Source: Kitasatospora sp. NBC_00374 | GTDB lineage: Bacteria > Actinomycetota > Actinomycetes > Streptomycetales > Streptomycetaceae | Reading direction: 5' to 3' | Length of the DNA stretch: 64,000 nt | NCBI RefSeq assembly: GCF_041434935.1 | Contig: NZ_CP107964.1 | Location: forward strand, 2,232,001 to 2,296,000 | In this document: positions 5,559 to 57,924 of the stretch, piece by piece | How positions within the stretch are numbered: the first letter of the stretch is position 1 | Layout: every line of letters starts with the position of its first letter | The notes under the pieces: generated by a model | Databases searched by the model: none | What the model was told of the DNA's origin: nothing | What the model saw: only the letters and a program-made list of their open reading frames with translations | Position numbers and translations under genes: made by a program

Positions 5559-5574
5559 CCGGTACGGCCCGCGG

Positions 5575-7800: not shown

Positions 7801-7826
7801 CTACGGCGGCGCTGCGCGCCGGCCCT

Positions 7827-25484: not shown

Positions 25485-25495
25485 TGGGGCAGCCG

Positions 25496-39874: not shown

Positions 39875-41197
39875 CTACGACTCCTCGACGGGTTCGGCCG
39901 GCCGCAGGCGGCGGGCCGCCCAGACCCCGCCGGCGATCATGAACAGACCGCCGACCGCGAGGACCGTGTCGATCCGGCCGAAGTGCACCCCCGCGACCTC
40001 GGTGTCCAGCCCGCGCAGCGCGGTACTGGCCAGGAATCCCGCCAGCGCCATCGTGGAGATCGCGGCGAGCTGCTGCACCGGGCCGATCACCGTGACCACC
40101 CGGCCGAGCAGGTGCTGCGGGGTGACGCCCAGCAGCAACGGGCCCACCACCACGTTCACCGCGCCCACCGGCAGGCCGATCAGGGCGAGCACCACCAGGG
40201 CGAGCGGCAGTGCGGTGAGCCGGGAGTAGAGGACGACCCCGGCGCCGGTCAGCACCAGGCAGAGCCAGTAGATCCGGTGGTCGCTCAGCTTGCCGGAGAC
40301 CGCGCCCGCCAGCAGCCCGCCGAGCAGCGTCCCGACCGCGAACCCGGCGCCCAGGGTGCCCAGCCAGGAGGCCGCGGAGTGCAGGTTGTCGGTGACGAAG
40401 AAGACGTCCAGCACATTGAGCGCGCCGACACCGAGGGTGTACACGCACACCGAGCCGAGCAGGGCCATCAGGACGCGGTTGTGCACGAAGAAGCTGATGC
40501 CCTCCCGGAAGTCGGCCCGGAAGGTGGACGGCCCCCGGTCCGCCGGGCGCTCGGTGGGCGCCACCACCAGCGACCTGATCAGCAGGAAGGACAGCACGAA
40601 CGAGCAGGCGTTGGCCACCAGGGCCCACTGCACTCCGGCGGTGAACAGCAGCGGCGCCGCCAGCGGCGGGCCGATGATGCCCGCCGCGCTGCCGGTCGCG
40701 GAGGTGAGGCTGAACGCCCGGGTGCGGTCCGCCTTGGGGACGGTCGCGCCGATCACCGCCAGCCGGGCCGGGTTGAAGAACTGCCCGGCGCCCGCGCAGA
40801 CCGCGACCGCGGCGTAGACCAGGGCGAGGGCGACTCCGGTGGGCAGCCGGTCGCCCGCGAGCGGCACCAGCAGCAGGGCCAGGATCACGGTGGCCCGCAG
40901 CGCGTCGGTGGCGAGCATCAGCCGCCGCCGGTCCCACCGGTCCACGAACACCCCGGCCACCGGCCCGACCAGCAGGGTCGGCACGGCCGCCGCCAGCAGC
41001 ACACCGCTGACCGCCGCCGGCGCCCAGCTCTGCCCCTTGGCGAGCACCGTGCCGACCCAGAGCACGACAGTGGTGTCGAAGACGAAGTCGCCGACCACCG
41101 AGACCGCCTGGCCGAGCCAGAGCCGATGCCAGTTGCGGTTGTGCCGCAGGCCGTCGGCCTGCTTCGGTGGAGCCTGGGCCGGCACGGTGTCGGTCAT
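39875..41197 (-). CDS. MFS transporter, last gene of the RiPP cluster
   Basis: 440 residues with about twelve hydrophobic segments and the MFS_3-type signatures GPVAGVFVDRWDRRRLML and GQFFNPARLAVIG typical of enterobactin-exporter-like (EntS) drug transporters. Its ATG overlaps the stop of the JmjC gene by four bases (ATGA) and GGGAGG lies five bases upstream, so it is coupled to that gene. It is the likely exporter of the cluster product or a self-protection pump. Confidence 0.9.
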   Translation of the reverse strand: MTDTVPAQAPPKQADGLRHNRNWHRLWLGQAVSVVGDFVFDTTVVLWVGTVLAKGQSWAPAAVSGVLLAAAVPTLLVGPVAGVFVDRWDRRRLMLATDALRATVILALLLVPLAGDRLPTGVALALVYAAVAVCAGAGQFFNPARLAVIGATVPKADRTRAFSLTSATGSAAGIIGPPLAAPLLFTAGVQWALVANACSFVLSFLLIRSLVVAPTERPADRGPSTFRADFREGISFFVHNRVLMALLGSVCVYTLGVGALNVLDVFFVTDNLHSAASWLGTLGAGFAVGTLLGGLLAGAVSGKLSDHRIYWLCLVLTGAGVVLYSRLTALPLALVVLALIGLPVGAVNVVVGPLLLGVTPQHLLGRVVTVIGPVQQLAAISTMALAGFLASTALRGLDTEVAGVHFGRIDTVLAVGGLFMIAGGVWAARRLRPAEPVEES

Positions 41198-42183
41198 CTC
41201 GCCTCCCTCGGGCGGTGCGGGGCCGGGCGGGGCGGCCCCGAGTGGGTGAGGGCGCGCAGCAGGGAGCCGCCGCCGGTGGGGACGGACCGCGGCCGGGCCG
41301 GCCGGATCCGGTCGGCCGTCTCCTTGGCGTCGGCCGCGGCCGGCGCCGCCGCCAGCCGTCTCCTGAGCTCGGCCGCCCGCTCGGTCAACTGCCGCTCGAA
41401 CTCCTCTGGTTCGAGCCGGTGGAAGCCGTACGGCAGGCACTCGCGGAACGCCTCGGCGGCCAGCACCCGGTCCACCAGCGGGCGCAGCACCGCGCCCCAG
41501 GTGACCGGGCGCAGCGCCACCGACAGATGGACGGACGCCTCCTCGGTGGCGTCCCCGACGTGGACGAAGCCGCGCGGGATGTACAGGCACTCGCCCGCCC
41601 GCAGGACCACGTCCAGCAGTGGATCGGGCTCCGGGCCGGGCCGGGCCGCCGACCACTCGCGGACCGGCCAGCGCTCCGGCGGCCGGGAGACCCGCCAGCG
41701 TTTGGAACCGTGCACCTGGCGCACCAGCACGCCGGCCGTGTCGTAGTGCGGGGCGACGCCGCGCGCACCGGCCGGGGTGAGGAAGGCCGCGCAGTAGGTG
41801 GCGAAGCCGGTCTCGTCCGTCAACTCCCGGCAGAACGCGGCGACCTGGGGGCAGTAGGTCTGCAACTCCTCCAGGACGAGCGTGGCACCGGCGGCGACCT
41901 CGCGCTCCACCGCGCGGCCGTCCACCAGCAGCTCGCGGCGGCCGGCGGACCGTTCCCGGCCGCGGCCGACCCGGGCGGCGGGCACCTCCTCGCCGTCCCG
42001 GAAGAGCCGGACCGACGGCACCGGCAGACCGGTGGTGTGGATCAGCCGCTCGGCGGTGCGGGCGTCGAAGACGTCGGAGAAGGAGCCCAGGGCCACGGCG
42101 ACGAACGGTTCGTCCTCCCAGTGCTCCCTGAGCCGGTCGGGGTCGCCGACCAGGCGGGCCACGCTGCCGGCCACCGTCCTCAC
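41194..42183 (-). CDS. JmjC/Cupin_4-type oxygenase in the RiPP cluster
   Basis: 329 residues. The iron triad is PHYD (H146, D148) and H208 in CLYIPRGFVHVG; HGSKRWRVSRPPERWPV follows the first motif as in YcfD-type ribosomal oxygenases. The GTG start overlaps the upstream stop (GTGA) and its stop overlaps the MFS start. It probably hydroxylates a side chain of a cluster peptide or a protein. Only 10-12 short stretches match the JmjC enzyme at 24.3-25.5 kb, so the two are distant relatives rather than a recent duplication. Confidence 0.85.
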   Translation of the reverse strand: MRTVAGSVARLVGDPDRLREHWEDEPFVAVALGSFSDVFDARTAERLIHTTGLPVPSVRLFRDGEEVPAARVGRGRERSAGRRELLVDGRAVEREVAAGATLVLEELQTYCPQVAAFCRELTDETGFATYCAAFLTPAGARGVAPHYDTAGVLVRQVHGSKRWRVSRPPERWPVREWSAARPGPEPDPLLDVVLRAGECLYIPRGFVHVGDATEEASVHLSVALRPVTWGAVLRPLVDRVLAAEAFRECLPYGFHRLEPEEFERQLTERAAELRRRLAAAPAAADAKETADRIRPARPRSVPTGGGSLLRALTHSGPPRPAPHRPREAR

Positions 42184-43241
42184 ACCCCCGCCCGGCTGCG
42201 GCTGGAGGCCAGCGCGGCGTGCAGCCGATGGGTGACCTCGGCCAGCCGCGCGGGCTCCCCCGGGCGGGGCGGGGCCGGTTCGCCGAGCCGGAGCAGGACA
42301 CCGCGGACCAGCGGCGCGTCGCCCCGGGCCTCGGCGAGCGCGGCGCGCAGCAGGATCCGGCCCTGCCGCTCCCGGCCGGCCCGCTGCAGGGTGGCGCCGA
42401 GGACGGCCCACCAGCGCGGCACCGTCAGCGGGGAGGCCCAGGGGCCGGGCAGGCTGCCGACCGGTTCGACCAGGGACTCGGCGAGTTCGGCCGCCTGCTG
42501 CGGCCGGCCGTGCTCGGCCGCGTGCGCGGCCAGGTGCAGGGTGCGGACCACCGCGAGGCGGCGGGCCATCGGGTCCGGGTCGGTGAGGGCGGCCGGCCCG
42601 GGGGGCCCGGCGGTCTCGGCGCCGAGCAGCCAGGGGGTCTCGGCGGCGTGCTGGATGCCGTGCGCGACCAGGGTGGGCCAGCGTTCGGCGAACCGGGCGG
42701 CGGCGGGCGCCAACAGGTCGGGCCGGGCCCGGCGGTGCAGGATCCGGCAGGTGTCGCTGACCCGGATGTTGCGGGCCAGCGCCCTGATCCGGCGGGCCAG
42801 GGCCGGGTCGTCCGCGAGGTCCTCGGGCCACCAGTCGATGTCCTGGGTCTGCACCCGCTGGCCGTCGGCGATCCGCTCCAGGGCGGCCAGCCCGGCCAGC
42901 GCCCGGTCGAGCCCGCCGGCGTACCCCTCGATCCGGACCAGGTTGACCTGCGGCTGAAGGGCGAGCGCGGCGACCTTGGCGGTGTGCGGGCCGCGGCCGT
43001 CGTGGACGCGGCTGCGCGCGTACGCGGTCTCCGCCCGGCACAGGGCCCGGGCGTGTTCGGGACGGCCGAGCCGGAAGTGCACCAGGGCGATCAGGTTGGC
43101 CGCCACGAAGAGCGGTTCGGGGTCGTCGTCGGCGGGCCGGGACAGCAGCCCGAGGGCCCGGTCGACGGCGGCGGACTCGTTCTGGGGGACTCGTTCCTCG
43201 TCGGAGAGGAAGCCGAGCCAGTTCGGTGCCGGTGCTGTCAC
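42180..43241 (-). CDS. Helical repeat protein of unknown function in the RiPP cluster
   Basis: 353 residues, soluble, mostly helical, with TPR-like pairs (FVAANLIALVHFRLGRPEHARALCRAE and QQAAELAESLVEPVG) and a WWPEDL motif in the middle. I do not recognise the family. The GTG start overlaps the LanB stop (GTGA) and its stop overlaps the JmjC start, so it is expressed with them. A scaffold or peptide-presenting role is possible but is a guess. Confidence 0.75.
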   Translation of the reverse strand: MTAPAPNWLGFLSDEERVPQNESAAVDRALGLLSRPADDDPEPLFVAANLIALVHFRLGRPEHARALCRAETAYARSRVHDGRGPHTAKVAALALQPQVNLVRIEGYAGGLDRALAGLAALERIADGQRVQTQDIDWWPEDLADDPALARRIRALARNIRVSDTCRILHRRARPDLLAPAAARFAERWPTLVAHGIQHAAETPWLLGAETAGPPGPAALTDPDPMARRLAVVRTLHLAAHAAEHGRPQQAAELAESLVEPVGSLPGPWASPLTVPRWWAVLGATLQRAGRERQGRILLRAALAEARGDAPLVRGVLLRLGEPAPPRPGEPARLAEVTHRLHAALASSRSRAGV

Positions 43242-46222
43242 AGCGCGGCCTCCTTCGGGGTTCCTGACGGGCGGTCGAGGGTCGTGCCGGTTCGGGCGGT
43301 GGCAGTCGTGCGGGTGGTGGCAGTCGTGCGGGTGGTGGCCGTGGTGGCGCTCTGGCGGTCGAGCAGGCGGCGCCACAGGCCGAGGGCGGTGCGCTCACGG
43401 GCCCGGTCCAGGCCCAGCCGGTTGGCGTGCAGGTGGAGCAGGGAGGCCACGGCGTGTCGGCGGCGCTGCGCACCCTCCGGGCCCGGCCAGTGCTCGGCCA
43501 GCAGGCGCCGGTACTCGGCCGCGGGCGGCGCCCAGTGGGCGGCGACCAGGTCCGGCCCGGGGCTGCCCCCGGCGCGCAGCCGCCACAGGTCCCGGCCGTG
43601 GGCGCGGTGCTCGTGGGAGCCGTCGCGGGTGTCGGCCACGGCGGCCGCGAGGGCCCGCCGCTCGCGGAGGTCGGGCAGGAGCAGGGCGGCGATCCGGTCG
43701 AGGGTGAGGGCCGCGAGCGCGGCCGGCGGCAGGCCGGGCGGGGGCCGGCGGGCCGGCTCGGTGGTGAGCAGGGCGGCGACGGCCGCGGAGTCGGCGCAGA
43801 ACAACCGCTCGGCGGCGCCGATCAGTTCGGGGCCGCCGTAGCGGTCGGTCTCCGGCCGGTAGCCGCGGACGACGACCTCGTGCAGAGGCAGCCGGTGGGC
43901 GCACTCCCGGGCCCAGTCGAGCAGTTCGTCCAGCCGGCCGGGCTCTCGGCGGACCCTGACCCGCAGGTGCTCGACCGGGTCGGCGTAGCGGACGAAGAAC
44001 AGGTGCGACCGGGGCAGGCGGGCCGTCAGGTCGGCCAGCAGGGCGTCCTGCCAGGGTGCGCGGAGGTGGAGGTGGAGGGAGAGCCAGTCCGGCGCGGGCC
44101 GGCCGGGCCGGACGGACGGCGCGGCGGCGGGTGCGGGTGCGGTTGCGGCGGCAGTCACGGCGGCGGGCAGCAGGGTCACGGGGACCACCGCTTCGAGGGC
44201 GTGGCGCCCGCCGTCGGCGCCGGTGACGGGTTCGCCGCCGGGGGCGGGGACGGCTTCCTCCAGCAGCAGCCGGGCGTCGCCGGCGCGGTCCAGGGCGTGC
44301 CGCAGGTGGGCGAGCGAGACGGCGCTGTCCAGGTCCAGCAGCAACTGCCGTCCCGTGCGCACCAGGTGGAGGTGGCGAGGGGCCAGCCAGCGGTCGGCCC
44401 AGGCCCGGACCTGCCGGGCCGAGCAGTCTCCCAGCTCGCGGCGGTCGGGACGCCAGCGGGCCGGGGAGACCACCAGGCCGCGGTGTTCGAGCCGGGGCTG
44501 GAACGGCCCGCGCCCGGCCGCCCCCCAGTCGAACGGCGCCGGGTGGCGGAACTGGTTGGCGGAGGCGTCCAGCAGGAAGCGGCAGACCGGCGGGGCCAGC
44601 CGCAGGTCCAGCCCGCTGGCCTGGGTGAGGTGCAGCAGGTGACCGGTGGCGGCCTCGCGCAGCTCGAAGCGGCCGTCGCTCACGGCGACCAGGACCTCGG
44701 CGAGGGCGAGTTGCGGCGCCTTGCCCGCGGGCGGCAGGTCGACCGCGAGCTGCCGGGCGCGCCAGACCTCCCGGGCGGCCACGTTCGCCGCCGCGGCCTC
44801 CTCGGGCCGGTAGCGCAGTTCGACGAAGCGGTGTCCGGGGGCGGCGCCCTCCTCCGCCGTGAAGGCGGCCCGCAGGGCGGCCCGGGCGGGCTCGTCCAGC
44901 AGGTCGGTCGCCCTGCCGTAGGCGACCCCGGCGGGGACGGCGCCCGGTCCGGCGAGTGCGGCCCGGATCCCGCCGCCAGGCGTGCGGGCGATCCGCAGGC
45001 AGATGTCGGCGCCGGGCAGGGCCGGACGCCGCAGGTCGATCGGGCGCTCGGCGCCGAGGCGGGCGAGCAGGTCGTCGTCGAGTTCGCGGACCGGCCGGCG
45101 GTGGGCGAGGGCCTCGACGACCAGGGTGGCGAGCAGGGTCTCGCGGTGGTCGGGCGCGACCGGCCCGCCGGCGTCCAGGGCCCGCAGGTCGGTGAGGGTG
45201 TGGACGGCTTCGAGCGCCGGCACCCGGGCATGGTCACCGTAGTGCTCGGCGAAGGCGGCCGCCGCCCGGGCGAGGTACGCCGGGTAGCGGCTGCCGCGGC
45301 CGATCAGGACGAGCACGGCGGCGGCCTGTTCGGCGTAGCGGGCCACCGCCCGGTCGAGGGCGAGCGGCCCGGCCGGGCGGGCGACGGCGTCCAGGTGCAG
45401 GGCGGGCCGGGGGCGGGTGCGCAGGGCCGTCCGGAGCCGGTCGAGGGCCTCGGCGGGGTCGGCGGTGTTGAGCCGCTCGCACAGGCCCAGCAGCGGCCCG
45501 GGGGCGGCGGGTTCGGGCCCCGCGGTGCGCAGGAAGCCCCGGCGGAGCAGTTCGCGGACCAGGCGGTGGGCCGGCCCGGGATCGGAGGTGCCGTAGCGGC
45601 GGCCCAGTCCGGCGACGAGCTCGGCGAGCGGGACGGGGCGGGCGGCGGCGCGCAGCACCGCCAGGGCCGGCCCGCTGCCGCGCAGCCAGTGGGCGGCGCC
45701 CGGCCCGGCGGGCTCCCGCCAGGGATGTCCGTCGGGGGCGTGTACCAGGTCGGAGACCTGGACCAGGGTCCGGCCGTCGGGCTCGGCGCCGCCGGGCCGG
45801 GGTCGGCGCAGGGCGGCGTCCGGGCGCGCCACCGGGCGGGCGGGGCCGGCCAGGTGCAGCCGGGGGCGGGGCCCGAAGGGCGCGGCGGTGACGGCGGCGG
45901 CCAGCCCGAAGGGGGTGGGGCGGGTGCTGAGCCGGTTGAGGCAGCGGTCCAGCGCGAGGGCCGTCCGCGGATCGGCCGGCCCGCCGGGGCCGGTGAGCGC
46001 CTGGGCCAGGGCCGGTGCCGCGTGCTCGACGGCGGTGGCCACCAGGGAGGTCCGCCAGGCCTCGGCCAGCAGGGCGCGGTGCGTGACGGGCCAGTGCGGG
46101 TCGTCCGCCGGGCAGGCGGCGAGCAGGTCGGAATACCGGTCCGCGGGCAGTGCCGGAATGCGCAGCACGGCCACCTCGGCGGCCCGGTAGCGGGGGGCAT
46201 CGGGGTGTTTCCGGTCGACCAT
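43238..46222 (-). CDS. lanB: Full-length LanB-type lantibiotic dehydratase
   Basis: 994 residues containing both halves of class I dehydratases: the glutamylation domain (about 1-650; LNRLSTRPTPFGLAAAVTA is the LanB signature RMSTRPTPFGL) and the C-terminal elimination domain (about 715-960; DWLSLHLHLRAPWQDALLAD, FFVRYADPVEHLRVRVRRE). Such enzymes use Glu-tRNA to glutamylate and dehydrate Ser/Thr of a precursor peptide. A 50-codon precursor gene with Thr and Ser near its end lies directly upstream. The C-terminal tail holds an 18-bp tandem repeat giving Thr-rich TATTRT repeats. No LanC is in the window. ATG 46222 follows GGGAAAGGG. Confidence 0.9.
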   Translation of the reverse strand: MVDRKHPDAPRYRAAEVAVLRIPALPADRYSDLLAACPADDPHWPVTHRALLAEAWRTSLVATAVEHAAPALAQALTGPGGPADPRTALALDRCLNRLSTRPTPFGLAAAVTAAPFGPRPRLHLAGPARPVARPDAALRRPRPGGAEPDGRTLVQVSDLVHAPDGHPWREPAGPGAAHWLRGSGPALAVLRAAARPVPLAELVAGLGRRYGTSDPGPAHRLVRELLRRGFLRTAGPEPAAPGPLLGLCERLNTADPAEALDRLRTALRTRPRPALHLDAVARPAGPLALDRAVARYAEQAAAVLVLIGRGSRYPAYLARAAAAFAEHYGDHARVPALEAVHTLTDLRALDAGGPVAPDHRETLLATLVVEALAHRRPVRELDDDLLARLGAERPIDLRRPALPGADICLRIARTPGGGIRAALAGPGAVPAGVAYGRATDLLDEPARAALRAAFTAEEGAAPGHRFVELRYRPEEAAAANVAAREVWRARQLAVDLPPAGKAPQLALAEVLVAVSDGRFELREAATGHLLHLTQASGLDLRLAPPVCRFLLDASANQFRHPAPFDWGAAGRGPFQPRLEHRGLVVSPARWRPDRRELGDCSARQVRAWADRWLAPRHLHLVRTGRQLLLDLDSAVSLAHLRHALDRAGDARLLLEEAVPAPGGEPVTGADGGRHALEAVVPVTLLPAAVTAAATAPAPAAAPSVRPGRPAPDWLSLHLHLRAPWQDALLADLTARLPRSHLFFVRYADPVEHLRVRVRREPGRLDELLDWARECAHRLPLHEVVVRGYRPETDRYGGPELIGAAERLFCADSAAVAALLTTEPARRPPPGLPPAALAALTLDRIAALLLPDLRERRALAAAVADTRDGSHEHRAHGRDLWRLRAGGSPGPDLVAAHWAPPAAEYRRLLAEHWPGPEGAQRRRHAVASLLHLHANRLGLDRARERTALGLWRRLLDRQSATTATTRTTATTRTTATARTGTTLDRPSGTPKEAAL
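43301..43336. repeat. Tandem 18-bp repeat in the lanB 3' end
   Basis: Two perfect copies of GGCAGTCGTGCGGGTGGT (43301-43318 and 43319-43336), with a partial third copy to about 43347. In frame they encode alternating Thr-Ala-Thr-Thr-Arg-Thr. It looks like slippage-generated low-complexity tail. Confidence 0.8.
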
Positions 46223-46320
46223 GCGCCCTTTCCCACCCCTCGGTCTGACATTCGACTGTCGGCCATTCGGCGCGCGGGCACCGGAATAGCACGGGCTTTC
46301 CGCGCCGCGCGGCCCACGCC

Positions 46321-46351
46321 TTGCCGGCGGCACCTGACGGACCGTCGGCAA
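46321..46351 (-). terminator. Hairpin between precursor peptide gene and lanB
   Basis: TTGCCGGCGG (46321-46330) pairs with CCGTCGGCAA (46342-46351) with one G-T wobble, 24 bases after the precursor stop. A leaky terminator here would give more precursor than enzyme message, a common RiPP arrangement. Confidence 0.6.
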
Positions 46352-46374
46352 GGGGGGTCAGCGGTCGGCCGGTG

Positions 46375-46527
46375 TCAGTTGGCCGAGCAGCCGAAGTTGA
46401 TGTTGGTGAAGCCGGCCTCGTCCTCGACGTCCGCCGCGTGGCCCTCGACGTCGCTCTCGGCGAGTTCGGCCTCGCGGGCGGCGGCGGCCAGCTCCTCGGC
46501 CTCGTTCCGGTCGAATTCGTTGGACAT
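46375..46527 (-). CDS. Candidate RiPP precursor peptide 1 (50 aa)
   Basis: The peptide begins MSNEFDRNEAEELAAAAREA, an acidic helical leader, then SDVEGH (DVEGH 26-30), and ends GFTNINFGCSAN (39-50) with Thr41, Cys47 and Ser48. A GGGAGGG ribosome site precedes ATG 46527, and a TTGACG-17-AACAAT promoter lies upstream. The gene is directly before lanB. Dehydration of Thr/Ser followed by Cys addition would give a thioether ring, but no cyclase is visible, so the fate is open. The DVEGH motif is shared with precursor 2. Role inferred from position and composition. Confidence 0.8.
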   Translation of the reverse strand: MSNEFDRNEAEELAAAAREAELAESDVEGHAADVEDEAGFTNINFGCSAN

Positions 46528-46582
46528 GAGCCCTCCCAGGGGTCCTTGACGGTACCTCGGCCCGCTTCTGCGGCCCGTTCGA

Positions 46583-46611
46583 ATTGTTCTCACCGGCCGG
46601 ACCGGCGTCAA
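46583..46611 (-). promoter_or_regulatory. Promoter for precursor 1 / lanB unit
   Basis: On the minus strand TTGACG (46611-46606), a 17-base spacer, and AACAAT (46588-46583), about 56 bases before the precursor ATG. It is the best sigma-70-type match in this part of the window and sits in an AT-richer gap. Confidence 0.65.
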
Positions 46612-46709
46612 CAGTCGCGGCAATACCGGGAATTAATTCCGGCGTCCCGAAAATGGCAGGCGGAAACAGCCCTCCGGACACACGGTGAAACCGACTGAGG
46701 AATTCCCGC

Positions 46710-49781: not shown

Positions 49782-49966
49782 CACAGCAGGGCACCCCCCT
49801 CGATCCCGTGGCCCTCGACGTCCGCGCCGGCCGCGTCCAGCCGCCGCTTGACGTCCAGCAGCAGTTGGATCTCCTCGTCGGTCAGGGCGTCGAGGACGGC
49901 CAGCTGCTCGTCGCTGGCGTAGTCGAGGTCGAAGCCGAGCTCGGTGAGCCGGTGCGGGTCGGCCAT
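49778..49966 (-). CDS. Candidate RiPP precursor peptide 2 (62 aa)
   Basis: The peptide begins MADPHRLTELGFDLDYASDE, runs through an acidic/helical region LTDEEIQLLLDVKRRLDAAG, then ADVEGHGIEGGALLW, with DVEGH at 49-53 and a 9-residue Gly-rich tail ending in Trp62. A GGAGGA site lies four bases before ATG 49966. It has no Cys. The DVEGH motif is shared with precursor 1. It follows two radical SAM genes and the diiron-like gene, and the start of the regulator overlaps its stop. Modification of the GIEGGALLW tail (Glu, Gly, Trp) is the natural hypothesis. The leader/core border is unproven. Confidence 0.8.
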   Translation of the reverse strand: MADPHRLTELGFDLDYASDEQLAVLDALTDEEIQLLLDVKRRLDAAGADVEGHGIEGGALLW

Positions 49967-50667
49967 GATTCCTCCGTGGGGTGTCGGCGGGCGGGTCGGA
50001 CCAGCGGGGCGAGGACGTCGACCAGGCCGTCCGCACTGGTCGCGGCGGCGGTGAGCAGCAGCCGGTGCTGCGCCCCGGTGAGCACGAGCGAGTCGAGGAA
50101 GGCCCGCAGCGCACCGCCGTGGCCGGTGTCCAGGGCGGCGTGCGCGGCCAGCGTGCGGAACGCCGCGGCGGGCAGCCCGGTGCGGGCGGCCAGCCGGTCG
50201 GCGACCCCGGCCGGGGGCGGGTACCACTCCAGCAGGGCGATGTGGCCGAGCAGGGCGAGCGGATGGACGTGCCGGATCCAGTACCCGGGCGCCCCGGCGA
50301 ACCGGGCCACGGCCGGGGTCGGCGGAGCGGCCAGCAGCTCGGCGGGGTCGGCGCCGGTGGCCGCGTAGTCGTCGAGCAGCCAGCGGTCGTGGCCGTGCTC
50401 CTCGGTCAGCTGGACGGCGAAGTACGGGGCCAGTTCGGCCGAGAGCGGGTCCTCGCGGCGCAGGCACTCCTGGACGGCCTCGGCGAGCAGCGGTGTGGTG
50501 GCGCGGACCACCTGGTGGCTGGTGCGCAGCCAGGCCCGGTACCGGTCCACCTGGCAGCCCTCGTCCCAGAGCCCGGCCGCGACCGCCGCGAGGGCGGGCG
50601 CCAGCCGGTCCAGCAGCAGCCGCAGCCGCAGTCCGGCCGGTACGGGGGTCAGGGTTTCGGCCGGCAT
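49882..50667 (-). CDS. Haem-oxygenase-fold (TENA/diiron-like) enzyme
   Basis: 261 residues, helical, with motifs of iron-containing redox enzymes of the TENA/haem-oxygenase fold: SHQVVRATTPLLAEAVQ, QLTEEHGHDRWLLDDYAA (E89, E90, H91, H93), HVHPLALLGHIALLEWY, and HAALDTGHGGALRAFL. Such enzymes oxidise peptides or fatty acids with a diiron centre. ATG 50667 follows AGGAGG eight bases away and overlaps the upstream rSAM gene by 19 bases. The last 28 residues (Ser/Thr/Pro-rich) overlap precursor 2 in another frame for 85 bases, so the natural stop may have been lost. Confidence 0.8.
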   Translation of the reverse strand: MPAETLTPVPAGLRLRLLLDRLAPALAAVAAGLWDEGCQVDRYRAWLRTSHQVVRATTPLLAEAVQECLRREDPLSAELAPYFAVQLTEEHGHDRWLLDDYAATGADPAELLAAPPTPAVARFAGAPGYWIRHVHPLALLGHIALLEWYPPPAGVADRLAARTGLPAAAFRTLAAHAALDTGHGGALRAFLDSLVLTGAQHRLLLTAAATSADGLVDVLAPLVRPARRHPTEESWPTRTGSPSSASTSTTPATSSWPSSTP

Positions 50668-51668
50668 CGGGCCACCTCCTCGCCGTCGGCGGCAGCAGGA
50701 CGCTCGCCGGGGGCCAGCAGGCCGAGCAGGGCCGCCGTCCGGGGCTCGGCCTCGACCGTCCGGTGGGCGGCCCAGCAGGCGTCGCACACGGTGCGGTGGC
50801 CGGTGCCGGCGAGGTGGGCGAAGCCGGGCAGCGGGGCCAGGGCGGCCGGTCCGGCAGTGGCGAGGATCCGCAGCAGCGGGTCGTGGGCGTAACCGTCCAG
50901 GGCGGCGGCGAGCCCGGCGGCGTCGACGGCCCGGCGGCGCAGTGCGCGGGGGCCGCCGCCGGTGATGACCGTCTCGTTGCAGCAGCCGGTGACCGTCCCG
51001 TCGTAGCGGACGGTCGGCGCCCGGGCGGGCAGGCAGGGGCCGAACTCGCCCAGCGGGCGGGGCTCGGGCGCCGGGAACAGTCCGGCGCCGCGGCCGGCGG
51101 CCAGCGGCCGGGTCGGGTACAGCTCGGCGCGCGCGGACCAGTCGGGGCCGAGTTCCTCGGTCAGCAGCCGGCGGGCCGCGTCGAGCCGTCCGGGCTGGTC
51201 GATGACCTGGAGCACCGGGTGGCCGCCGGCCCCGAGCACGGCGGCGATCGCGCGCCGCAGCCGGACCTGGCCGAGCCGGGCCAGGTGGTAGCCGTCGACG
51301 CCGAGGAAGACGGTGTCGGCCTTCGCCAGCACGCCGGTGATCCAGCGCGGGGTCCGGGGCCCGGCCCAGTGGCCGGCGGTGAACAGCACCACGGCCCGGC
51401 CGGCGCCGTGCAGCCGGTCGACGGCGAGCGTCAACGCCCGTCGCTCGGCGAAGGGTTCGCCGCCGGAGACGGCGACCGCCCGCAGCCCGGGGCGGTCGGC
51501 CAGCGCGTCCAGGAGCTCGCCGAGCAGCGTCAGGTCCGCCGGGCCGGGGCTGTCGGGGCGGGCGGAGACGGAGCAGTGGGCGCAGCCGACCGGGCAGCGG
51601 TCGGTCAGGTAGAGCAGCACGCTCGCGCCGGGGGTCCGGCGCAGCGCGAGAACCTGGTCGAGTCTCAT
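50649..51668 (-). CDS. Radical SAM enzyme (paralogue A)
   Basis: 339 residues with the cluster motif CPVGCAHC (C25, C29, C32) in LYLTDRCPVGCAHCSV, the GGEP motif (VSGGEPFA), and a C-terminal region with further Cys (FGPCLPAR, TGCCNE, CDACWA) that may bind auxiliary clusters. Radical SAM enzymes of this kind install C-C, C-S or C-O bonds in RiPPs. Its ATG overlaps the stop of the next paralogue by four bases (ATGA). The N-terminal organisation matches paralogue B closely, so these two arose by duplication. Confidence 0.87.
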   Translation of the reverse strand: MRLDQVLALRRTPGASVLLYLTDRCPVGCAHCSVSARPDSPGPADLTLLGELLDALADRPGLRAVAVSGGEPFAERRALTLAVDRLHGAGRAVVLFTAGHWAGPRTPRWITGVLAKADTVFLGVDGYHLARLGQVRLRRAIAAVLGAGGHPVLQVIDQPGRLDAARRLLTEELGPDWSARAELYPTRPLAAGRGAGLFPAPEPRPLGEFGPCLPARAPTVRYDGTVTGCCNETVITGGGPRALRRRAVDAAGLAAALDGYAHDPLLRILATAGPAALAPLPGFAHLAGTGHRTVCDACWAAHRTVEAEPRTAALLGLLAPGERPAAADGEEVARCRPKP

Positions 51669-52738
51669 CCGGCCCACCCCAGTTCGACCAGGTCCGCGTA
51701 GCCGGGGAGCGCGCCGCGGGCGACCGCGAGCCGTCGGGGCGCCCGGGCGGCGGTCAGTGCCAGGACGGCCCGTTCCATCCGCCGGCCCTCGGGGGTGCCG
51801 AGGCCCTCGGCGGCGCGCGCGGCGGTGGCGGGGGTGAGTGCGAGGCAGTTGCGGCAGGCGTCCGGGGCGCAGCCGGGTTCGGCGGGCGGGCCGTGCCGGC
51901 GGCGGGTGCCGATCGGGCCGAGGGTCCGGACGGACCGCAGCAGCGGGTCGCCGAGGGTGCGTCCGCTGAGCGTCCGCCAGGGGTCGCGGGCGGCATGGCC
52001 GAGCACCAGGTGGGCCGGGCCGCCGCCGCGCAGCAGGCTCTGCCGGGTGCAGGCGAGGACGGTGCCGTCCTGGTCGACCAGTGGCCAGTGGGCGAACTCG
52101 CACGGCCCCGGGTCTCCCCCGCCGGGCGTCGGCGCGGGCAGCAGGCCGCGGGCCCGGCCGGTCGGCCGGACGGCGCTGACCAGCATCGGCACCCGCGCGC
52201 CGAACCGCCGCCGGACCTCGGCCACCAGGCCGTCGACGTACGGGTCGGGCCCGGCGCCGGGCAGCGCGGTGATGTGCAGGCTGACCGCGGGGACGAGGTC
52301 CAGGACGGCGGCGAGCGCGCCGAACACCTCCGCCCGGCCGACCTCGCGTTCGTGCTGGGCGTCCAGGCTGGCCGCGAAGTGCGCGAGGCCGGCCACGGCC
52401 CGCCGGACCGCCGGGGGCAGGCCGGCGCCGCCGCGGGCGAAGAACATCCCGGACAGCAGCGCTGCGCCGGTGCCGACCCGGGCCGCCGAGGCCGTCAGCT
52501 CGGCGACCAGCCCGGGGCGCAGCAGCGGTTCGCCGCCGGACATCAGGATCAGCTCGGGCCGGCAGTCGGGCTCGAAGGAGTCGACCAGCCGCCGGAACGG
52601 CTCGCCGGGCGACTGGGCGGCGGCCATCGTGGAGGCGGTGGAGCAGTGGGCGCAGGCGAGCGGGCAGCGGTCGGTGAGCGCGAGCAGCAGCCCGGCGGCC
52701 GGCCGGGCGCCGAGGGTGAGGAGGTCCGCCAGGTGCAC
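51665..52738 (-). CDS. Radical SAM enzyme (paralogue B)
   Basis: 357 residues with CPLACAHC (C25, C29, C32) in LALTDRCPLACAHCST, GGEP (MSGGEPLL), and later Cys (GPCEFAHW, ACTRQ, GCAPDACRNCLAL) suggesting auxiliary clusters. The position of the three Cys and the LTDRC context are the same as in paralogue A. GTG 52738 has GGGAG nine bases upstream and follows the GAF gene by 14 bases. One of the two may act on precursor 2; sequence alone does not assign them. Confidence 0.87.
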   Translation of the reverse strand: MHLADLLTLGARPAAGLLLALTDRCPLACAHCSTASTMAAAQSPGEPFRRLVDSFEPDCRPELILMSGGEPLLRPGLVAELTASAARVGTGAALLSGMFFARGGAGLPPAVRRAVAGLAHFAASLDAQHEREVGRAEVFGALAAVLDLVPAVSLHITALPGAGPDPYVDGLVAEVRRRFGARVPMLVSAVRPTGRARGLLPAPTPGGGDPGPCEFAHWPLVDQDGTVLACTRQSLLRGGGPAHLVLGHAARDPWRTLSGRTLGDPLLRSVRTLGPIGTRRRHGPPAEPGCAPDACRNCLALTPATAARAAEGLGTPEGRRMERAVLALTAARAPRRLAVARGALPGYADLVELGWAG

Positions 52739-52752
52739 GCCGCCGCTCCCGT

Positions 52753-53343
52753 CTACCGGTCCGTGCGGAGCAGGTCGGCGACGGCCGCCAGCAGCGCCCG
52801 GACGGCTTCGCCGCGTGGCCCCCCGGCCTCGCGGGCGGCGGCCGCGATCCGGGCGAGCGGGTCGCCGTCGGCCCGGCCGGGCGGGCGGTGGCGTTCGGCG
52901 AGGGTGAGGGCGAGCACCGCGGCGCTCTGGTTGGCCAGTTCGGTGAGCAGGTCCATCGCGTCCAGGTCGCCGATGCCCTCGACCTTCGGGTCGAGCACCT
53001 CCAGCACGCCGAGGATCTCGCCGCGGTGCTCCATCGGGACGGCCATGATCACTTCGGGTACCAGTCCGGTGCTCTCGGCGAAGCCCTTGTCGAAGCGGGC
53101 GTCCTCGGCGACGCCGCGCACCACCATCGGCTCGCCGGTGTTGGCCACCCAGCCGGCGATGCCGTGGTCGCCGGGGATGGCCACGCCGACCAGCCGGTCC
53201 TCGCCCACGCCGGAGGAGGCCTCGAAGACCAGGGTGCCGTTCTCCTCGTCGCGGACGAAGACGGAGGCCGCGGCCGCGGCGAAGGACAGCCGGGCCAGCC
53301 GCACGGTGGAGCGCAGGATCTCGTCGAGCTGGTCGGACGTCAC
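52753..53343 (-). CDS. GAF-domain protein
   Basis: 196 residues, mostly one GAF domain (AAASVFVRDEENGTLVFEASSG, GIAGWVANTGEPMVVRGV, VPMEHRGEILGVLEV). GAF domains bind cyclic nucleotides, haem or small molecules. Since the cluster also contains a class III cyclase-like regulator, a cyclic-nucleotide link is conceivable but not shown. GTG 53343 overlaps the subtilisin stop by four bases (GTGA), so it is coupled to that gene. Confidence 0.85.
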   Translation of the reverse strand: MTSDQLDEILRSTVRLARLSFAAAAASVFVRDEENGTLVFEASSGVGEDRLVGVAIPGDHGIAGWVANTGEPMVVRGVAEDARFDKGFAESTGLVPEVIMAVPMEHRGEILGVLEVLDPKVEGIGDLDAMDLLTELANQSAAVLALTLAERHRPPGRADGDPLARIAAAAREAGGPRGEAVRALLAAVADLLRTDR

Positions 53344-54197
53344 TCCGGTCTCCTCGGGGCGATGTTGTCGGCGGTGGCCGTCAGGACGTGCCGCAGCTGC
53401 GGGGTGCGGAAGCCCGGGTGGCGTTGCAGGATGCGTGCGCAGAGCCCGGTGATGTGCGGGGCGGCGAAGCTGTTGCCGGAGACCCGCCGGGTGGCGCCGC
53501 CGAGCCAGGGCGCGGGCACGTCGACGCCGAGGGCGAAGAAGTCCACCGGCGGGCGGGGGTTGGACTCCACCCGCTCGGGGTCGGCGACGGCGTGCGCGCC
53601 GACCGAGATGACCGAGGGGAAGCGCCACGGGTAGCTGTCGACGGGGCTGTTGTGGGCGGCGGAGATCAGGGTCACGCCGGCGAACCAGGCCTCGTCGGCG
53701 AGGTCGTGCAGCCGTTCCTTGAAGTGCTCGCGCCGGGTGGAGAGACTGACGTTGATCAGGGCGAAGCGCTCGGCCACGGCCCACTCCAGGGCGGTCAGCA
53801 GGGCGTCCCCGTTGCCCTGGAGGTTCCCGCCGAGGACGCGGACGCTGGTGAGCTCGCAGTCCGGGGCGAGCGAGCGGACGATCCCCGCACACGCGGTGCC
53901 GTGGCCGGCCACGTCGCCGCCGGTGTCCTCGGCCACCGACCAGGGGCGGGTGCCGTCGGGGGCCGGCTCGGCCGCCCGGACGGCGGCCAACTGCCGTACG
54001 TCGCCGCCGATCTGCGGGTGTCCGGCGGTGACCCCGCTGTCCACGACGCAGACCCGTACGCCGCGTCCGGTGGCCCCGCCCCAGGCCCAGGACCGGCTGA
54101 CCGGCGCCGGGGCGGCCAGCTCGGCCGGGTCGCACAGCTCGCCGGCCGAGGTGTGCGCGAAGCGGATGGTCCGGCGGGCCGGTGCGGCGCCGCTCAC
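53340..54197 (-). CDS. Cytoplasmic subtilisin-family protease
   Basis: 285 residues with the S8 triad: D53 (VCVVDSGVTAGHP), H99 (GGDVAGHGTACAG) and S243 (VSGNSFAAPHITGL), with oxyanion Asn183 in SAAHNS. There is no signal peptide and no pro-domain, so it works in the cytoplasm. In RiPP clusters such proteases release the core peptide from its leader, and the DVEGH motif in both precursors is a candidate site. It is coupled to the SPASM rSAM upstream and the GAF gene downstream. Confidence 0.9.
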   Translation of the reverse strand: MSGAAPARRTIRFAHTSAGELCDPAELAAPAPVSRSWAWGGATGRGVRVCVVDSGVTAGHPQIGGDVRQLAAVRAAEPAPDGTRPWSVAEDTGGDVAGHGTACAGIVRSLAPDCELTSVRVLGGNLQGNGDALLTALEWAVAERFALINVSLSTRREHFKERLHDLADEAWFAGVTLISAAHNSPVDSYPWRFPSVISVGAHAVADPERVESNPRPPVDFFALGVDVPAPWLGGATRRVSGNSFAAPHITGLCARILQRHPGFRTPQLRHVLTATADNIAPRRPE

Positions 54198-55582
54198 CGG
54201 GCGCCGCCGCCGTCCGCGTCGAACGGGGTGAAGCCGCGCCGCCGGACGGCCAGGTCCAGGCGCTCGGCCCAGTTGAACTTCACGCTGGGGCAGGGCAGAT
54301 GGCCCTCCCGCCAGAGTTTGGGGCAGGAGCCGCCGCAGACCGGCAGGATCGGACAGCGCGAGCACTGCGCGCCGCCGTCGCCCACCTGGTCGTACCAGTC
54401 GTCGAAGGCGCCGGCGGGCCGCCGGGCGGAGCCGGCCAGGTCGGCGACCCGGGCGACCACGCCGGTGTCCCGGGCGCCGGGGACGAGCGGGTGCTCGGAG
54501 CAGGAGTAGACCCGGCCCTCGGTGTCGACGATCTCGCCGGAGCGGGTGGTGGCGGTGCAGGTGGTGCGGACGGTCGCGGCGGGCAGCGGCGCGAAGTGCA
54601 GGCCGAGCGCCTCGGCGGTGCGCAGCCAGCCGGCCTCCCGCAGCGCGTAGGCGCGGGCCGCCAGTTCCACCTCGGACACGTCGTTGCCCCAGGAGTGGAC
54701 GGCGATCAGGTGCAGGGTGACCTGCGGGTGGGCCAGGCCGAGGCAGGCCAGGTCGTTGAGCAGGTCGGTGACGGAGTCCTCGTTGTCGCGGTCGATGTTG
54801 ACCCGGATGCCGATCCGCAGGCCGGGAGCGGCGCCCCGGGCCAGGGTCTCGGCGAGCACGGTGACGGTCCGGTGGAAGCTGCCGCGGCCGTTGCGCCTGA
54901 GCCGGCGGCGGTCGTGCACCTCCTCGGGGCCGTCGACGGTCAGCTCCATCTCGTCGAGCGCGCAGTCCCGGTGGAGTTCGGCGAGGGTGCGGACGGTGAG
55001 CAGGCTGCCGTTGGTGGCCATCCGGGCGCGGTACGTCTTGCCGTGCCGGGCGGCGGCGGCGGTGAAGCGGGCGCTCAGCTCGCGGATCACCCGCAGGGCC
55101 AGCAGCGGCTCGCCGCCGAACCAGGTGACGGACACCGTGTCGACCCCGGGGTCGGCCAGCATCGCCTCGACCCGGCGGGCGGTCCGGTCGGCCCGCACCC
55201 GGTCGTGCGCGGCCTTGACGTGCTCCTGGCCGCAGTAGCTGCACGCCATGTTGCAGTACGAGGTGGGCATGATGGTCACCGACCGGGACGACGTGCGGGC
55301 AGACCCCTCCCGCAGTCCGCCGGTCACCGCGGCGAGTTCGTCCTCGCCCCGGCCGACCAGCGCCCGGAGCCGGGCCAGCCGCCGGTGCTCGGCGGGGTCG
55401 AGGCCGGCCAGCGCGTCCGGGTCGCCGGAGCGCAGCGCCGCCGCCGTCGCACGGTCCAGCCGGATCAGTGCGGCCGAGCGGGTCGCGTAGCCGAACCAGG
55501 CCTCGCCGCCGTCGGCGTCCCGGTAGGGCCGCTCCCCGATCAGCAGGTAGCGGCTGGGGACCAGGGCGGTCATGGCGCTCAC
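54194..55582 (-). CDS. Radical SAM/SPASM enzyme
   Basis: 462 residues. CNMACSYC (C110, C114, C117) binds the catalytic cluster, FGGEPLL follows, and a C-terminal SPASM-like region (VYSCSEHP, QCSRCPILPVCGGSCPK, CPSVKF) holds auxiliary clusters. This layout is shared with peptide-modifying maturases such as those making sactipeptides, streptide and ranthipeptides. GTG 55582 overlaps the upstream stop (GTGA) and has GGGAGG five bases upstream. It lies 5.6 kb from the precursor 2 gene but in the same transcription unit. Confidence 0.92.
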   Translation of the reverse strand: MSAMTALVPSRYLLIGERPYRDADGGEAWFGYATRSAALIRLDRATAAALRSGDPDALAGLDPAEHRRLARLRALVGRGEDELAAVTGGLREGSARTSSRSVTIMPTSYCNMACSYCGQEHVKAAHDRVRADRTARRVEAMLADPGVDTVSVTWFGGEPLLALRVIRELSARFTAAAARHGKTYRARMATNGSLLTVRTLAELHRDCALDEMELTVDGPEEVHDRRRLRRNGRGSFHRTVTVLAETLARGAAPGLRIGIRVNIDRDNEDSVTDLLNDLACLGLAHPQVTLHLIAVHSWGNDVSEVELAARAYALREAGWLRTAEALGLHFAPLPAATVRTTCTATTRSGEIVDTEGRVYSCSEHPLVPGARDTGVVARVADLAGSARRPAGAFDDWYDQVGDGGAQCSRCPILPVCGGSCPKLWREGHLPCPSVKFNWAERLDLAVRRRGFTPFDADGGGAR

Positions 55583-56505
55583 GGTGCCTCCCGGTGCTCG
55601 GGTTCCGTCGTCCAGGACGCGGCCGCGCCCAGGGAGATGCGCAGGCCGGCCGAGGCCGTCGAGTACGGGTGCCCGGGGTCGACCGACAGCCGCAGGGTGA
55701 CCTGCGGCGGTCCGCCCACCGGGCGGCAGCGCACCGCCGTCAGCCGGTCCAGCCGGTGCACGGTGACGGCACGTTCCAGCAGGCCCAGCAGGACGGGGTC
55801 GGCGCAGCGCACCCGGGTCACCCGGCCGGCCGAGAGCTCCACCGTGACGGGCCGCTCCCGCAGTGAACCGCCCAGCCGGGTGGGCCGGTTGATCCGGATC
55901 AGGCCGTCCGCGCGGAACTCCCCGTCGGCCGCCCCGACCGGGCAGTGCAGGTGGCCGCCGGGCAGCTGGCGGACCCGGCCGGGCTCGGCCGGGCCGTCCT
56001 CGACCCGCGGGGGCCGGTCGGCGCACGGCCGCAGCAGCAGCTCGGCGCCGTCGCCGGTGCCCACCCGGACGGCCGCCGCGGCCGTGGTGCGGGCGCACAG
56101 GCCGGCCAGCCGGGCGGCCCGCAGCGTGGGCTCCTCCCAGTCGGGGACGGGGAGTTGGACCGCCACCAGGGAGGCCGGCAGCCGGAGCACGGCGTGGTCG
56201 AGCGGTTCGGCGCACAGGAAGAAGGCGGCCTCACGCGCCGCCGGCCCGTCGCCCCGCAGCCCGGCCAGCGCGGCGAGCACCTGCCGGCCGGTGCGCACCG
56301 GGCTCCACCCGTCCGCGGCCAGCAGCCGGACCGCGACCCCGCCGGCCCTGGCGGTGGCCGCCAGCCAGGCCGCCTCGGGCGCCCGGCCGCGGTCGAGGAC
56401 GACGGCCAGCCGGTCTCCGGCGGCGAGCCGCAGCCGGTCGAAGAGCGCGGACCGCACGGCGAGCCGCTCGGCGGGGTCGGGTGCCAGGATCTGGGCAGAG
56501 GGCAT
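55579..56505 (-). CDS. Unidentified protein, possibly degenerate M29-like
   Basis: 308 residues, first gene of the leftward unit. The C-terminal half (RQLPGGHLHCPVGAADG, RINRPTRLGG, RPVTVELSAGRVTRVRCADP) recalls the aminopeptidase M29/NicX fold (LPxGEVxxAPV...GVxxxD), but the metal-ligand Glu and His residues are not evident. An inactive relative or a recruited scaffold would fit. Alternatively the family is new. ATG 56505 has GAAGG seven bases upstream. Confidence 0.55.
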   Translation of the reverse strand: MPSAQILAPDPAERLAVRSALFDRLRLAAGDRLAVVLDRGRAPEAAWLAATARAGGVAVRLLAADGWSPVRTGRQVLAALAGLRGDGPAAREAAFFLCAEPLDHAVLRLPASLVAVQLPVPDWEEPTLRAARLAGLCARTTAAAAVRVGTGDGAELLLRPCADRPPRVEDGPAEPGRVRQLPGGHLHCPVGAADGEFRADGLIRINRPTRLGGSLRERPVTVELSAGRVTRVRCADPVLLGLLERAVTVHRLDRLTAVRCRPVGGPPQVTLRLSVDPGHPYSTASAGLRISLGAAASWTTEPEHREAP

Positions 56506-56898
56506 ACGGGCAGCCTTCGCGAGGTCGGTGGCGCCGTCCGCGGGCGCGGATCGGCCGGGGTGGGTCGGTCCCGGTGGTGCAGGGCTCCTCGGCGCTCCGG
56601 TCGCTCCCGGACTCCGAGCGGCGGACCGGCCGACCGGCCGGTCGGGTGTCCGGAAAACGGCGGTCGCACGACCGGCCCTCTGGCCGGGCACCTCACCATG
56701 TGGCAGGTTCTGCGCAGGCCCGCTCTCCCCACGGAGCCGGGCCCGGCCTACGGTCAGCTGCTGTGACGGACTGTCAACTCTCTTGAAGATCAGCGCACAT
56801 GACAGTCTCCCGGCCGGGCCACCGACCGTCCAGCACGCGGATCTGGCAGCAACCTGCATGTCCCCAACGTGCAGCGACCATGACCGGGGGGTACCTCG
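56506..56898. promoter_or_regulatory. Divergent promoter region of the RiPP unit and LuxR gene, with inverted repeat
   Basis: This 393-base gap separates leftward and rightward transcription. GACTGTCA (56769-56776) and TGACAGTC (56800-56807) are perfect inverted repeats 23 bases apart. TTGACA (56777-56772, minus strand) overlaps the left arm and could be the -35 of the leftward unit. No gene is seen. The right end has GGGGGG before the TTG start. Confidence 0.55.
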
Positions 56899-57924
56899 TT
56901 GCCGGACGTCACGGCTCCCGATCCCGTACCGCGGCTGGACCCCGCCGCCGTCCGGCTCTTCGACCTCGCGCTGGCCAGGGGCCGGATCGACCGCTCGCGG
57001 CACGGCCTGGAGGCGCCCGAGCTGGACCGCGAGCAGTTCGACCGGGCCTGCGAGGTGCTGCTGCGGCTGCGGCTGCTCCGCCCGGTCCCCCAGCTGCCGG
57101 ACCAACTCGTCCCGATGAGTCCGGAGCTGGCCGCGGCCGGGGTGACCGCTCCGCTGGAGGAGGGGATCGCCCGGGCGGCGGAGCAGGTGCGGGCGATCCG
57201 TGAGGAGTTCGGGGCGCTGATGCCCCGGTACCGCTCCGCCCGGCACGGCTCCGCCCGGCGGGATCCGGTCGAACTGCTGACCGACCCGGTGGTGGCCGCC
57301 GCGCTCTTCGCCGAGGAGGCCGGGCACTGCCGGGAGGAGCTGTTCACGGTGGCGCCGGGCGGGCTCCCGCAGGACGGCCCCGCGGACGCCACCGGCACCG
57401 GCCTCGCCGCACTCGCCCGCGGCGCCCGGCTGCGCACCCTGTGCCGGGCCGCACCCGCGACGCCGGGTCCGCGGCGCGAACAGATCAACCGGCTGATCGC
57501 CGCCGGCGCCGACTACCGCGCCCTGCCCGAACTCCCCGAGCCCGCCACGGTGATCGACCGCAGCACCGCCTTCCTCACCCGGCGCGAACCGGACGGCAGC
57601 GCGAGCACGGTCCTGCTCCGCGACCACGGCGCGGTGGCCTACCTCTGCCAGGCGCTCGACCTGCTCTGGGCCACCGCCACCCCCTGCCGGGCCCAGCACC
57701 GCACCGCCCCCCGCGACCCGGCCGGCAGCGGGGTGCACCGGGCGGTGGTCCGGATGCTGGCCGAGGGCGCCAAGGACGAGGTGATCGCCCGCCGGCTCGG
57801 GGTCTCCCTGCGCACCTGCCGCCGCCACATCGCCGACATCCTGGAGAGCCTGCGGGCCGACAGCCGCTTCCAGGCCGGCGTCCTGGCCGAGCGCACCGGA
57901 CTCACCACCGGGGGGCCGCCGTAG
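56899..57924 (+). CDS. LuxR-type regulator flanking the RiPP cluster
   Basis: 341 residues. The C-terminal helix-turn-helix (VRMLAEGAKDEVIARRLGVSLRTCRRHIADILESLRADSR) is of the LuxR/NarL type with the typical ARRLGVSxRTxRRH core. The N-terminal part is a winged-helix-like region (ELDREQFDRACEVLLRLRLL) and a larger helical domain of unknown ligand, the layout of streptomycete cluster regulators. It starts with TTG 56899 after GGGGGG and is divergent from the cluster, so it is a likely cluster regulator. Confidence 0.85.
   Translation: MPDVTAPDPVPRLDPAAVRLFDLALARGRIDRSRHGLEAPELDREQFDRACEVLLRLRLLRPVPQLPDQLVPMSPELAAAGVTAPLEEGIARAAEQVRAIREEFGALMPRYRSARHGSARRDPVELLTDPVVAAALFAEEAGHCREELFTVAPGGLPQDGPADATGTGLAALARGARLRTLCRAAPATPGPRREQINRLIAAGADYRALPELPEPATVIDRSTAFLTRREPDGSASTVLLRDHGAVAYLCQALDLLWATATPCRAQHRTAPRDPAGSGVHRAVVRMLAEGAKDEVIARRLGVSLRTCRRHIADILESLRADSRFQAGVLAERTGLTTGGPP

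Follow-up and report, generated by a model that had tools for sequence, protein, structure and literature searches.

The DNA analyzed here is a stretch of 64,000 nucleotides from the soil bacterium Kitasatospora sp. NBC_00374 (contig NZ_CP107964.1, positions 2,232,001 to 2,296,000; hereafter the window). Between about 39.9 and 57.9 kb it contains a gene cluster, mostly on the minus strand, for ribosomally synthesized and post-translationally modified peptides (RiPPs). We propose, with a probability of roughly 0.6, that this is a two-precursor cluster whose two cassettes share regulation, protease and export. Two neighbouring blocks of genes on one strand make it up, and each contains one short gene for an acidic peptide. 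In the order of transcription, block 1 encodes a CgnE-like protein, the radical S-adenosylmethionine (SAM) enzyme rSAM1, an S8 subtilase, a GAF protein, rSAM2, rSAM3, a haem-oxygenase-like diiron oxidase (HDO), the peptide PrecS (62 aa) and a cyclase/ATPase; block 2, separated from it by a gap containing a promoter-like site, encodes the peptide PrecL (50 aa), LanB, a TPR-like protein, a JmjC_2 oxygenase and an MFS exporter. The proposal is built on what can be read directly: the genes themselves, intact active-site motifs in LanB, JmjC, S8 and the radical SAM enzymes, synteny, and the co-variation of enzymes with peptide motifs.

An earlier note on this DNA had described a RiPP cluster with two precursor-like genes, a full-length LanB, three radical SAM genes, a cytoplasmic subtilisin, JmjC, GAF, cyclase/ATPase and LuxR proteins and an exporter, nearly all in one direction. 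Every gene named was confirmed, at or near the place given for it. LanB carries both PF04738 and PF14028, CxxxCxxC is present in all three radical SAM genes, the S8 subtilase has no apparent signal peptide, and only the LuxR gene is divergent. The four-base overlaps also noted are found at eight junctions (LanB/TPR, TPR/JmjC, JmjC/MFS, CgnE-like/rSAM1, rSAM1/S8, S8/GAF, rSAM2/rSAM3 and PrecS/cyclase). The haem-oxygenase-fold enzyme and the diiron enzyme of the note are one and the same gene, and two conserved genes, CgnE-like and TPR-like, had been passed over.

Conserved linkage of the two blocks

A scan of 84,980 species genomes with rSAM1 yielded six loci, and family sampling added a third LanB-containing genome, G103 (Streptomycetaceae); class- and phylum-wide sampling revealed no additional close rSAM1. 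The linkage, which the earlier note had proposed to look for in other actinomycetes, recurs in Kitasatospora MBT63, G103, S. avicenniae and S. hoynatensis, and in reduced forms in Glycomyces, a metagenome-assembled genome (MAG) and Rhizobium etli. G103 contains the entire set, including LanB, in the gene order of the window. In MBT63 the genes are about 70-98% identical and are distributed over contig ends; both genomes possess the divergent LuxR orthologue (52% identical in G103). In S. avicenniae and S. hoynatensis the order runs JmjC, MFS, CgnE-like, rSAM1, S8, GAF, rSAM2, rSAM3, HDO, PrecS, cyclase, with TPR and PrecL divergent; no LanB was found in the stretches examined around these two clusters. 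The reduced sets of Glycomyces and the MAG are accompanied by M16 peptidases. Since synteny is kept across genomes, the cluster is not a chance assembly of open reading frames (ORFs).

The blocks could also be two separate neighbouring clusters, one of aroma-sacti type (55.6-46.7 kb) and one lanthipeptide-like operon (46.5-39.9 kb). PrecL has its own promoter-like site (TTGACG-17-AACAAT; one found versus 0.0 expected, with TTGACG kept in MBT63), and some genomes have just one of the two cassettes (L019, L040, L041; loci are designated by L numbers). However, JmjC-MFS lies upstream of CgnE-like/rSAM1 in S. avicenniae and S. hoynatensis, i.e. the genes are rearranged and the linkage is kept, and rSAM1 matches the Asn-x-x-Cys motif of PrecL, a gene of the other operon. 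We consider two independent clusters unlikely, and retain the reading of one cluster with two precursors.

PrecS and its cassette

Codon changes relative to MBT63 reveal that both peptide genes are under purifying selection: PrecL, 96% identical, has six synonymous and two non-synonymous changed codons, and PrecS eight and one. At least seven of nine base changes in each gene fall in third positions, the overlap of PrecS with the HDO gene notwithstanding. The two genes share 85 bases (49882-49966), read in different frames, at the 3' end of HDO and the start of PrecS; other genomes have similar overlaps. An ORF of 140 aa (46358-46780), listed as a small gene, is out of frame with the real peptide gene at this place, PrecL. 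Both peptides are very acidic (net charges -12 and -11), and in both a DVEGH motif separates the leader from the tail.

PrecS contains the aroma_sacti domain (NF045560, 65.6 bits versus a cutoff of 30). Its tail GIEGGALLW is free of Ser, Thr and Cys and so departs from the Cys-bearing tail of that family; the Cys sits in PrecL, which has no NF045560 domain. Hence dehydroresidues or thioethers are impossible in the PrecS tail, and its modification must be epimerization, C-C/C-O chemistry or oxidation. The cluster corresponds in part to the sactipeptide and aroma-sacti definitions.

The genes rSAM2, rSAM3 and HDO are present where the PrecS tail reads EGG[AG][LV][LV]W, and are absent from L040 and L041, where the PrecS-like peptide ends in DLKLL. 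All three enzymes probably serve PrecS, according to this co-variation. The weak resemblance of rSAM3 to the YydG peptide epimerase family (TIGR04078, 33.6 bits against a cutoff of 300, i.e. below family membership) hints at epimerization. The ExxH, E and DxxH ligand-type residues of HDO are kept in four of five homologues.

Alternatively, PrecS could serve the cyclase/ATPase as a regulatory or signalling peptide and not be a product precursor. Its gene immediately precedes the cyclase gene and overlaps it by four bases, as it also does in L040 and L041, which lack rSAM2, rSAM3 and HDO. Yet NF045560 is also the leader of Cys-bearing NVVC precursors, and the tail shifts to GG-hydrophobic-Trp exactly where the three enzymes occur, so that a purely regulatory role seems improbable. 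L040 and L041 themselves contain two aroma-sacti-domain peptides each, one ending in NVVC or NVLC beside rSAM1 and one ending in VEGQDLKLL before the cyclase gene; L040 has an additional weak ATP-grasp-like ORF.

rSAM1 and the Asn-x-x-Cys motif

With its invariant CxxxCxxC and SPASM Cys residues, rSAM1 is closest to NCBIfam TIGR04463 (190 bits, under the family cutoff). As in sactipeptides and ranthipeptides, a SPASM radical SAM enzyme thus stands beside a Cys-bearing precursor. The core of PrecL comprises Thr41, Asn44, Phe45, Cys47 and Ser48, with a single Thr and a single Cys and with N-F-G-C at 44-47; its homologues end in [LV]D[IV]N-x-x-C in L017-L020 and in TDINFGC in L038. An N-x-x-C motif occurs in a short peptide beside rSAM1 or its relatives at 14 of 15 loci. 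The PrecL group has NFGC, apart from NGIC in the MAG, and other Streptomycetaceae have NFIC, NVVC, NVLC, NTVC, NGSC and NGVC. Plasmids of Streptomyces and Rhizobium etli contribute NGNC and NSGC, respectively; the R. etli rSAM is only 34% identical. From each peptide's own composition, the probability of Asn at -3 this often is 4e-13; the figure ignores phylogeny and includes some peptides picked by eye, and is therefore strong but not exact.

According to the simplest reading, rSAM1 is predicted to form an Asn-Cys thioether with a four-residue ring, in which the attacked carbon may be Calpha or Cbeta. The enzyme could instead make a C-C cyclophane, e.g. Phe45-Cys47: several of its NCBIfam neighbours are cyclophane formers (FxsB, GrrM, YhhB), and F-G-C is a three-residue motif. 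But the aromatic residue is variable (NVVC, NGSC, NGNC, NSGC) while Asn and Cys are conserved, and the better-scoring relatives of rSAM1 include the thioether formers PapB and QhpD. A cyclophane is accordingly a rather poor candidate. A thioether of the predicted span has a precedent in the Cys31-Gly34 S-Calpha bond of streptosactin (PMC8172795).

The two plasmid loci are compact. L043 (R. etli plasmid CP007643, 4680-9982) is a mini-cluster in which a VDFNSGC peptide is accompanied by an rSAM1 relative, JmjC_2, GNAT and an ORF with HEAVH (HExxH). L042 (Streptomyces NBC_01281 plasmid, 5516-10301) combines a 33-aa peptide ending in LDLNGNC with an rSAM1 relative, a methyltransferase, a SagB-type dehydrogenase and an MFS exporter.

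LanB, JmjC and the predicted modification of PrecL

LanB aligns to MibB (5ehk) throughout the glutamylation and elimination regions and possesses the motifs TRPTPFGL, FFVRYxD..HLRVR and RYGG; dehydration rather than tRNA ligation is therefore expected. In homology scans, this type of LanB was found only in the window, MBT63 and G103, with no plasmid match. Exactly in these loci, position -6 from Cys is Thr (TNINFGC, TDINFGC), whereas LanB-less relatives have Leu (LDINFGC, LDVNFGC). Because LanB is confined to the clade in which Thr replaces the core Leu, we suggest that it dehydrates Thr41 of PrecL. With LanC absent from the cluster, the product would likely be free dehydrobutyrine (Dhb).

The JmjC_2 protein, whose closest structures are NO66/MINA (E 3e-18), has invariant HxD...H ligands. 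It occurs in all six N-x-G-C loci (window, G103, S. avicenniae, S. hoynatensis, Glycomyces, Rhizobium) and was not found in six compared loci without N-x-G-C and with sufficient flank (L013, L019, L039, L040, L041, L042).

The earlier note had envisaged one peptide bearing both Ser/Thr dehydration and radical cross-links. The combination of LanB and radical SAM enzymes in one RiPP cluster stands; both modifications on one peptide are plausible for PrecL only (LanB, rSAM1 and JmjC), and here probable, whereas rSAM2, rSAM3 and HDO co-vary with PrecS instead. A class I lanthipeptide, in which Dhb at Thr41 and Cys47 would give methyllanthionine and the radical SAM enzymes would act on PrecS only, would agree with the full-length LanB and its elimination domain directly 3' of PrecL and with the one Thr and one Cys of the core, but LanC is missing, rSAM1 accompanies NxxC peptides alone in other genomes, and Cys and N-x-x-C are kept in LanB-less orthologous clusters without Thr, so that Cys has a LanB-independent role; we regard this as very unlikely. 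A plain lanthipeptide is rejected because the scanned ORFs of the cluster include no LanC, a thiopeptide because they include no YcaO and LanB is one full-length protein and not a split LanB/pyridine synthase, and a peptide aminoacyl-tRNA ligase (PEARL) because the elimination domain PF14028 is present (123 bits).

Partner proteins and gene inventory

The CgnE-like protein has no Pfam or NCBIfam match. Its AlphaFold model (pLDDT 80.5) matches NicX (7cn3, 4.7e-13), PepS and crocagin CgnE (6zsu, 7.5e-9) in Foldseek, and by inspection the metal-ligand positions are not conserved. Crocagin CgnE has been shown to bind its precursor, whose leader is basic, and carries an acidic patch close to where binding occurs (PMC10070186); here the charges are reversed, with acidic precursors and a basic protein (pI 10.2). 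The TPR-like protein is all-helical in its AlphaFold model (pLDDT 83) and matches a TPR-type fold weakly; its gene adjoins PrecL in L017 and L018 and lies near it in L020 and L038. For a helical protein of Rhizobium no kinship to it was demonstrable (E 0.08). The Asp/His/Ser triad motifs of the subtilase, closest to QhpE, are intact. A search against Rfam found no RNA element.

Table 1. Genes and sites of the cluster, with positions in the window and supporting matches.
Feature	Position	Strand	Evidence
LuxR-type regulator	56899..57924	+	GerE helix-turn-helix at C-terminus, PF00196 27 bits; divergent
CgnE-like degenerate M29/PepS-fold protein, predicted leader-binding partner	55579..56505	-	fold match
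rSAM1, radical SAM/SPASM peptide maturase, predicted Asn-x-x-Cys thioether former	54194..55582	-	PF04055; TIGR04463 190 bits
Cytoplasmic S8 subtilase, predicted leader protease	53340..54197	-	PF00082 84 bits; QhpE-like 115 bits
GAF-domain protein	52753..53343	-	PF01590; adjoins S8 in homologous clusters
rSAM2 (twitch/SPASM-like), PrecS cassette	51665..52738	-	PF04055 weak; CPLACAHC motif; syntenic in L017, L018, L038
rSAM3	50649..51668	-	nearest family YydG peptide epimerase (weak); CPVGCAHC motif; rSAM2 paralogue
HDO	49882..50667	-	PF14518 (Haem_oxygenas_2) 46 bits
PrecS, aroma-sacti-domain precursor peptide, tail ADVEGHGIEGGALLW	49778..49966	-	NF045560 65.6 bits; kept in L017, L018, L025, L038
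Adenylate/guanylate cyclase + AAA/STAND ATPase regulator, zinc ribbon	46710..49781	-	PF00211, PF13191; TOMM kinase/cyclase family 54 bits
Sigma-70-type promoter-like site, 5' of PrecL	46583..46611	-	TTGACG-17-AACAAT
PrecL precursor peptide MSNEF...DVEGHAADVEDEAGFTNINFGCSAN (ending also given as ...GFTNINFGCSAN)	46375..46527	-	Shine-Dalgarno GGGAGG; homologues
Full-length LanB dehydratase (glutamylation + elimination domains)	43238..46222	-	PF04738 228.6 bits, PF14028 123.1 bits
TPR-like helical protein, PrecL operon	42180..43241	-	weak TPR match; predicted structure
JmjC_2 (ROX-type) Fe/2-oxoglutarate oxygenase	41194..42183	-	PF08007 77 bits
MFS exporter	39875..41197	-	PF07690 98 bits; present in all full clusters

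Proposed pathway

Each chemical step, the order of steps, the cleavage site and the bioactivity are what we infer from genes and motifs. The acidic leader of PrecL would be bound by the CgnE-like and TPR-like proteins. rSAM1 would link Cys47 to Asn44 as a thioether, LanB would turn Thr41 into Dhb and perhaps also dehydrate Ser48, and JmjC would hydroxylate one residue within the N-x-G-C segment. In the other cassette, rSAM2 and rSAM3 would modify PrecS, one perhaps as an epimerase, and HDO would act on the GGALLW tail. The cytoplasmic subtilase is predicted to cut off the leaders and the MFS protein to export the product, while the cyclase/ATPase and LuxR proteins would regulate the pathway.

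Several observations weigh against this reading. LanB with Thr represents a single evolutionary event, because the window and G103 form one clade and MBT63 is a near-identical relative, which leaves the assignment of Thr41 suggestive only. No LanC domain was found among the cluster ORFs scanned. Some of the peptides beside rSAM1 were chosen by eye, and a distant member of its family, in G359, has no NxxC. DVEGH is common to both peptides, hence cassette-specific targeting is uncertain. Finally, in S. hoynatensis the HDO ligands (DxxH) are lost and rSAM2 aligns over its first half only (L018, 13346-15627); for these reasons the rSAM2/HDO cassette may be decaying there.

To our knowledge, a lantibiotic-type dehydrating enzyme, radical enzymes and oxygenases are not normally found together, and we know of no ribosomal peptide described to undergo both LanB dehydration and SPASM radical chemistry. 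The earlier note knew no described RiPP class with this set, and indeed our search of the open-access literature found no matching characterized cluster and no description of this gene combination. Tentatively, the cluster might represent a new RiPP class, in which an Asn-Cys thioether (from a new NxxC-specific SPASM family), LanB-derived Dhb and JmjC hydroxylation come together on one short peptide, forming a two-component agent with a second peptide from a paired-rSAM/diiron-oxidase cassette. With NxxC as a simple handle, genomes can be mined for an rSAM family spanning Actinomycetota and Rhizobium, for which the R. etli mini-cluster is a compact model system. Furthermore, comparing sister clusters with LanB (Thr) and without it (Leu) makes modular RiPP pathway evolution directly testable, and the CgnE-like protein would bring to radical SAM pathways a class of peptide-binding partners that was discovered only recently.

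Other loci

A second small RiPP-like locus lies in the window at 23404-25801 (minus strand), with a peptide MPENLSTSTELEGDGLLVSRTKVAAARSRGEQPSDGG..., an aldo/keto-reductase-like ORF, an APH-like ORF and a JmjC_2 protein (24297-25484, 106 bits) whose C-terminal ~90 aa resemble a RiPP recognition element (RRE). On G000:C1, identical-scoring LanB genes at 50277-52178 and 8921796-8923697 (L002, L003), about 50 kb from both chromosome ends, suggest that a lanthipeptide-type cluster lies within terminal inverted repeats longer than 50 kb.

Comparison with known systems

With crocagin, the cluster shares the fold of the leader-binding M29-like protein CgnB/CgnE (PMC10070186). The single copies in the crocagin survey kept their metal site, whereas the single copy here has a degenerate one; no other crocagin genes are present, and assignment to crocagin is rejected, given one CgnE-like gene instead of two CgnB/CgnE copies and no Ile-Tyr-Trp-type core. 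The biphenomycin bpm cluster (PMC12257519) likewise has a JmjC hydroxylase proposed in a RiPP pathway, but with MNIO/B12-rSAM chemistry and without LanB. QhpD/QhpE of quinohemoprotein amine dehydrogenase maturation resemble rSAM1 and the subtilase in the succession of a SPASM radical SAM enzyme and a cytoplasmic S8 protease (QhpE-like 115 bits, QhpD 77 bits); the substrates here are small RiPP peptides and not an enzyme subunit. Short-ring sactipeptides and ranthipeptides such as streptosactin (PMC8172795) also combine a SPASM maturase with a Cys-containing core, yet in our cluster the order is Asn-x-x-Cys with invariant Asn, and predicted dehydration and oxygenation are added. Class I lanthipeptides (NisB, MibB) share the full-length LanB and, next to it, a short, acidic precursor containing Thr and Cys; here, the LanC cyclase of that class is missing, a SPASM radical SAM enzyme, JmjC and the CgnE-like protein are added, and the Cys motif is kept without LanB. 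The aroma-sacti/StsA-related sactipeptide clusters (NF045560, NF045559) share the aroma_sacti domain of PrecS, and L040 and L041 combine rSAM1, S8, GAF and cyclase. The cluster of the window differs from them by a PrecS tail without Cys, by the extra rSAM2, rSAM3 and HDO, and by a second peptide, PrecL, with LanB, JmjC and TPR.

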